Of a stretch of DNA of 64,000 bases, positions 13,214 through 45,308 are shown piece after piece; within the stretch, counting starts at the first letter, position 1, and each line of letters starts with the position of its first letter. Source of the stretch: Natrialba magadii ATCC 43099 (lineage in GTDB: Archaea > Halobacteriota > Halobacteria > Halobacteriales > Natrialbaceae); the NCBI RefSeq assembly GCF_000025625.1, contig NC_013922.1, positions 1,736,001 to 1,800,000 on the forward strand, written 5' to 3'. Made by a program: the position numbers and the translations under genes. A model generated the notes under the pieces. That model worked only from the letters and a program-made list of their open reading frames with translations. It was not told the origin of the DNA and made no database searches.

Positions 13214-13298
13214 CTATAGTAGCCACTGCAAGTCACTGCACACCTGATCGCCAGCCTGCTCGGCGATCAGTGTGTAACTAGTTGCAGTTGTTACTATA
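13214..13298 (+). repeat. 86-bp palindromic element, copy 2
   Basis: It begins CTATAGTAGCC and ends GTTACTATA, and is the same family as 411-496 and 45223-45308. The differences from the other copies cluster in the central hairpin, GATCGCC...GGCGATC, where an A-T pair of the other copies has become a C-G pair. It sits between two convergent genes. About 50 bp upstream is CCACACTGTT followed by a GGAG-containing stretch that also occurs upstream of copy 1, perhaps a second shared element. Confidence 0.88.
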
Positions 13299-13419
13299 CA
13301 AGTGGCAGGTGCAAACACAAGCTGGCAGGGGAGCAAACACAAGCCGACACGGACGCAACGGAACGACGTCGATCCCAGATTGTGCACCACTCCTCGAGAA
13401 GGAGAAACGAATTCGAACG

Positions 13420-44962: not shown

Positions 44963-45256
44963 ATGCTTACGGCTCGCGATGCGATCGGATTGCTGTTCGA
45001 CCGAGAAGTAGCGAAACTCGCCGCCGTCGTAGCAATCGGCTGGTGGATGATCTGGACAGGAGTCGGATCAACGAACTGGATCGAGTTTTCGGGTGTCGTG
45101 CGCGGACTCGACGACTTGCTCACCGTACTTGCCGTCCTCGTCGGCGTGATACTCGCGTTCGTCGGGACGCTCGCACTGGTGGTCAAACTCGTTTACGACG
45201 CAGTTGTCCTCGCTAACGCGAACTATAGTAGCCACTGCAAGTCAATGCACACCTGA
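44963..45256 (+). CDS. Hypothetical two-helix membrane protein, C-terminus supplied by the palindromic element
   Basis: 97 residues: MLTARDAIGLLFDREVAKLA, then hydrophobic segments at about 20-34 and 52-78 (LLTVLAVLVGVILAFVGTLALVV). The last 11 residues (NYSSHCKSMHT) and the TGA stop are coded by the palindromic element that starts at 45223. The original C-terminus was therefore probably longer or different and was replaced when the element arrived. No family recognised. The gene is real by its clean membrane pattern, but function and activity are unknown. Confidence 0.62.
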   Translation: MLTARDAIGLLFDREVAKLAAVVAIGWWMIWTGVGSTNWIEFSGVVRGLDDLLTVLAVLVGVILAFVGTLALVVKLVYDAVVLANANYSSHCKSMHT

Positions 45257-45308
45257 TCGCACGACTGCTGTGCGATCAGTGTGTAACTAGTTGCAGTTGT
45301 TACTATAG
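45223..45308 (+). repeat. 86-bp palindromic element, copy 3
   Basis: CTATAGTAGCCACTGCAAG...CTAGTTGCAGTTGTTACTATAG. It differs from copy 1 (read in reverse) at one base only. It overlaps the 3' end of the gene at 44963 and ends 18 bp before the stop of the convergent gene at 45327. Confidence 0.92.

Follow-up and report, generated by a model that had tools for sequence, protein, structure and literature searches.

A palindromic 80-bp repeat in Natrialba magadii and other haloarchaea with the hallmarks of an IS630-type miniature transposable element

RESULTS

Three copies of a palindromic element in the window

The window, i.e. the whole 64-kb stretch of DNA that was analyzed, holds three copies of a palindromic repeat, the third of which overlaps the end of a small open reading frame. 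The features are as follows.

44963–45256, + strand: open reading frame for a small conserved membrane-like protein, extending into the element, its TAG stop having been the target
45226–45305, + strand: 80-bp element, copy 3, TAGTAGCCACTGCAAG...TTGCAGTTGTTACTA, defined by sequence comparison and an empty site in three sister species
45223–45308: copy 3 with its duplicated target, C-TA-[element]-TA-G (86 bp); ancestral site GCGAAC-TA-GCGC (loci L205, L210 and L211)
45224–45225: duplicated TA on the left of copy 3
45306–45307: duplicated TA on the right of copy 3
45264–45268: hairpin loop of copy 3, placed by folding and pair counts; the palindromic arms on its two sides extend to the element's ends and contain an internal loop
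411–496, − strand: copy 1 with the flanking target C and G; the 80-bp element is 414–493
13214–13299, + strand: copy 2 with the flanking target bases; the 80-bp element is 13217–13296, with C in place of G as the right-hand base

A sequence-only reading of the window had described an 86-bp unit at 411–496 (−), 13214–13298 (+) and 45223–45308 (+), and all three copies are present. Copies 1 and 3, reported as alike at 85 of 86 positions, are 99% identical across the 86 positions, and the near-full palindrome is borne out by folding, as the window copies fold much better than shuffled sequences (z of −5.4 to −7.5). The end pattern, with up to three mismatches, matches seven times in the 64-kb window against 0.01 expected. 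The sequence of the proposed unit stands while its size does not, the mobile part being 80 bp plus a duplication of TA; likewise, the outermost C and G in the CTATAG ends are part of the CTAG target and lie outside the element. We rejected the CCACACTGTT stretch as a shared feature of copies 1 and 2, its frequency being at chance level (four matches at one mismatch or fewer, where 1.8 are expected, and as many in 14 of 100 shuffles).

In three sister species the small protein encoded next to copy 3 ends in ...LANAN* or ...LANAS*. The N. magadii frame at 44963–45256 gains the ten residues YSSHCKSMHT before a TGA and reads ...LANANYSSHCKSMHT*. Copy 3 landed in the TAG stop codon and added ten residues to a small conserved protein, an illustration of how a protein can be lengthened by insertion into a TAG stop.

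Insertion occurs at TA and leaves clean empty sites in sister species

All 56 strict copies in the genome have the left end TATAGTAGC, 51 have GTTACTATA on the right, and terminal inverted repeats TAGTARCMACTGCAA are present at both element ends. The base preceding these copies is C in 45, the base following is G in 44, and 34 have both. The empty-site comparison proposed in the earlier reading was carried out by removing the element, searching the joined flanks in three sister species and aligning the matches; it is limited to flanks conserved enough for alignment, and window copies 1 and 2 yielded none. For 12 copies a sister species has a clean site with a single TA and no element, in flanks up to 95–97% identical (for example GATCAACTGC[TA]GCCATC), and none of the three species tested has the element at the 45223 site, where they read GCGAAC[TA]GCGC or GCGAGC[TA]GCGC. 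Two further sites have AA or TG in the relative, and for a few of the 12 a second relative has diverged at the site. Because the sister sites carry one TA and no element, the mobile unit is the 80-bp sequence together with a duplicated TA. Insertion is at TA, usually within CTAG, with duplication of the TA. CTAG itself is strongly avoided in the window (it occurs 23 times, where base composition would predict 218 and a Markov estimate 65), and a preference for this site in genomes that avoid it makes insertions easy to map.

The element is abundant in the genome and lies between genes

In the genome of N. magadii ATCC 43099 (4,443,643 bases in four contigs), a palindromic pattern picks out 55 strict copies and an asymmetric pattern 56. 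A covariance model made from 43 element copies gave 123 rows, corresponding to at least 88 distinct places; this is a hand count, the palindrome giving matches on both strands, and may be a lower bound, as scoring covered 150 of the 2351 first-look candidates. By this model the chromosome has 59 places, contig 2 has 16, contig 3 has 13 and contig 4 has none, so that contigs 2 and 3 are enriched (29 of 88, P = 7e-6 versus uniform density). The sequence-only reading had named a set of only three copies, at conserved positions, as the outcome that would point to vertical inheritance; we looked for this and found at least 88 places instead. It had also seen no gene inside, and the 80-bp element indeed has no coding capacity. 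The element is thus short, carries no transposase gene and is present in many copies.

Several variants were observed. Three 124-bp copies (L326, C3:10967–11090; L327, C1:593249–593372; L328, C1:140855–140978) carry in their loop an additional inner hairpin, GCGGTTCGGAGCGAG...GAGAACCGCG, and possibly form a subfamily, and a 50-bp copy (L329, C1:2877628–2877677) is missing the central stem, as a deletion between short repeats would leave it. In copy L081:599–682 the center is inverted relative to the arms when compared with most copies, and L051 is similar. A lone left end, TATAGTAGCCACTGCAAA, lies unpaired at C3:172158 (L279) and is perhaps a truncated copy.

By a crude codon-usage finder, 55 of the 56 strict copies lie outside strong open reading frames. 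The neighboring genes are oriented −− in 14 cases, ++ in 7, +− in 6 and −+ in 4, with one or both sides unassignable in the rest. The earlier statement that all copies sit at gene 3′ ends therefore holds for the three window copies but not genome-wide, where the copies are intergenic in all orientations, and the simplest explanation of this clustering is that CTAG is scarce and gene disruption is selected against, rather than a 3′-end function.

Across the 43 copies, 95.8% of arm pair cells are standard. Eight pairs show changes on both sides, in 40 cells versus 12.5 in shuffles, with slid controls far lower, although relatedness among the copies inflates such counts. Columns 15 and 70, for instance, form a C-G pair that is A-U in 16 copies. 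The paired changes may reflect selection, exchange between the arms or a few founder subfamilies. A search of Rfam gave no match to the element.

Resident IS630 elements share the target and the outermost bases

The N. magadii genome has five DDE_3 matches, four full-length and one broken. The four intact transposases sit in elements of ∼1055 bp with ends TATAGTARNCRTTAGAA; the stretch common to the four is about 1065 bp and has ends CTATAGTARNCRTTAGAA. The 80 relatives compared, drawn from many haloarchaeal genera, are mostly 1055 bp long and are flanked by C...G on both sides in 45 of 66. A preference of IS630 for the TA in CTAG is indicated by the title of Tenzen and Ohtsubo (1991) as cited in PMC2170065, and ISY100 duplicates TA (PMC2170065). 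Two of the four intact copies (L116 and L119) split an 80-bp element at an internal CTAG with duplication of the TA, and a Natrarchaeobius IS630 copy (L165) with element-like sequence on both sides is read as the same kind of event. The transposase of L116, L117, L118 and L119 lies in two overlapping frames, orfA and orfB, which suggests programmed frameshifting.

The outermost ∼8–10 bp are common to the element and the resident IS630, namely TATAGTA, then R, and C two bases further, whereas the repeat bases beyond the outer ∼10 bp differ (CMACTGCAA in the element versus NCRTTAGAA in IS630). The sequence-only reading had proposed a search for a transposase with matching ends; the resident IS630 agrees with the element in the outermost bases and the target and differs in the subterminal repeats. 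Tc1/mariner-type transposases bind the subterminal repeat sequence, and because the two differ there, the resident IS630 may not recognize the element. The outermost bases and target held in common strongly indicate mobilization of the IS630 type but not the individual helper, which may be, or may once have been, an element like the resident IS630. Partial searches turned up no autonomous element bounded by the full 17-bp ends of the repeat; across 391 genomes, A or T was allowed as the next base.

Distribution among haloarchaea

With a single query, the element was detected in 128 of the 391 genomes sampled from the class and in 29 of 86 genera; four haloarchaeal families, with no fewer than 29 genera, are represented. 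It is also present in 50 plasmid records, e.g. of Natrinema, Haloarcula, Natronorubrum and Halomicrobium. The resident IS630 clade occurs in 90 of the 391 genomes and together with the element in 48 (odds ratio 3.2); the association is significant over the 391 genomes and falls short of significance when the home family is taken alone (34/44/6/17, P = 0.15). Of 17 genomes with the element, picked because the resident IS630 clade is missing from them, eight have no detectable DDE_3 match, which suggests that copies may outlive their helper. Carriage by viruses was considered and rejected, the 14 single end matches in viral contigs being unpaired at nearly all loci checked, and a phage collection gave no element match. 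Tandem dimers with a 90-bp period appear in draft sister genomes; in the three that were read (L232, L233 and L234) the spacer contains an N, and we regard the dimers as a likely assembly artifact.

DISCUSSION

The repeat is present in many copies with exact ends, duplicates TA, is missing at empty sites in sister species and prefers CTAG, and resident IS630 elements have matching outermost bases and target. On these observations we consider it very probable that it belongs to the MITEs of the IS630/Tc1-mariner type and is moved in trans by an IS630-family transposase with duplication of TA. An IS630-family DDE transposase, supplied in trans, would excise the 80-bp non-coding element with its long inverted arms, and the excised element would be pasted into a TA, preferably inside CTAG, the TA being duplicated upon insertion. 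The identity of the mover, the cut-and-paste mode and a resident-like IS630 as helper are the deduced parts of this scheme. The MITE-like half of the original suggestion, with an enzyme encoded elsewhere, agrees well with at least 88 places, single-TA empty sites, the absence of coding capacity and an IS630 that has the same target and outermost bases. The REP-like half fails, as TA is duplicated and the sole Y1 (IS200-type) transposase gene has no such ends around it.

One alternative contests a single step of this explanation and keeps its mechanism: the helper may be a lost or unsampled IS630-family element with TAGTARCMACTGCAA terminal repeats, leaving the repeat an orphan MITE. Of the IS630 loci examined, none has the subterminal repeats of the element, and element-bearing genomes exist without any DDE_3 transposase; however, no such autonomous element was found in our partial tests, and the outermost bases and target of the resident IS630 do match, so that we place this possibility just short of probable. 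A mechanism of another kind, in which a Y1 transposase (RAYT or IS200-type) moves a REP/REPIN-like repeat through single-stranded hairpins, would suit a short, palindromic, mostly intergenic sequence in many copies with compensatory changes between its arms. It is contradicted by the TA duplication at insertion, and no ends of this kind surround the genome's one Y1 transposase gene; RAYT-dependent REPs and REPINs, with a Y1 helper and no target duplication, do not include this element, and we hold the mechanism to be highly unlikely.

The position of the three window copies downstream of genes, the stable fold and the covarying pairs could also be taken as signs of a vertically inherited functional hairpin, acting at gene 3′ ends as a terminator or RNA stabilizer. 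Sister species lacking the element at the same sites contradict this, copies are intergenic in all orientations, and Rfam has no match, which leaves it the least credible of the readings weighed here. There is, finally, an improbable though somewhat less remote case in which the palindrome is maintained by a role of the hairpin itself, in transposition by an unrecognized enzyme or in the RNA of neighboring genes, and the family spread in genomes lacking any IS630 helper; it would then share TA-in-CTAG with IS630 for a reason other than a common transposase.

In favoring the IS630-type MITE, we note that hairpins between haloarchaeal genes may be insertions and not regulatory RNAs, a caution for their annotation. 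The element could also serve, in archaea, to ask which portions of the terminal repeats are required by a transposase of the IS630 type. Literature searches on haloarchaeal IS630, MITEs or REPs turned up no description of its sequence, although ISfinder may have an entry, and it appears to be an undescribed family within a well-understood class of mobile DNA.

Comparison with known systems

Among haloarchaeal repeats, the MITEs, PATEs and SMRs of Haloquadratum walsbyi are likewise mobile and transposase-free, and a MITE resembles its helper at the terminal bases only (PMC3119063). PATEs are without terminal inverted repeats or target duplication (PMC3119063), and the element has both; SMRs are without target duplication (PMC3119063), and the element duplicates TA. 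By these descriptions, rather than by sequences, it belongs to neither group. Also set apart by description and not by sequence are the Correia/NEMIS and ERIC repeats, which are similarly mobile, with TA ends, target duplication and long stem-loops at ∼100–155 bp (PMC2229807), but are bacterial and longer. The haloarchaeal IS630 (∼1055 bp, orfA/orfB, DDE_3) shares ends of the form TATAGTAR.C, TA duplication and the CTAG target, while it encodes a transposase and differs in the repeat bases inside the first ten. RUP, the repeat unit of pneumococcus, is 107 bp long, has about 108 copies and is paired with IS630-Spn1 (PMC2229807). It differs in sequence and in domain of life, and the haloarchaeal element is shorter at 80 bp, is a near-complete palindrome, prefers CTAG and matches its resident IS630 in the outermost bases alone. 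Nonetheless, both are short non-coding MITEs with a TA target, mostly intergenic, in about a hundred copies, and with ends that resemble those of a co-resident IS630-family element.
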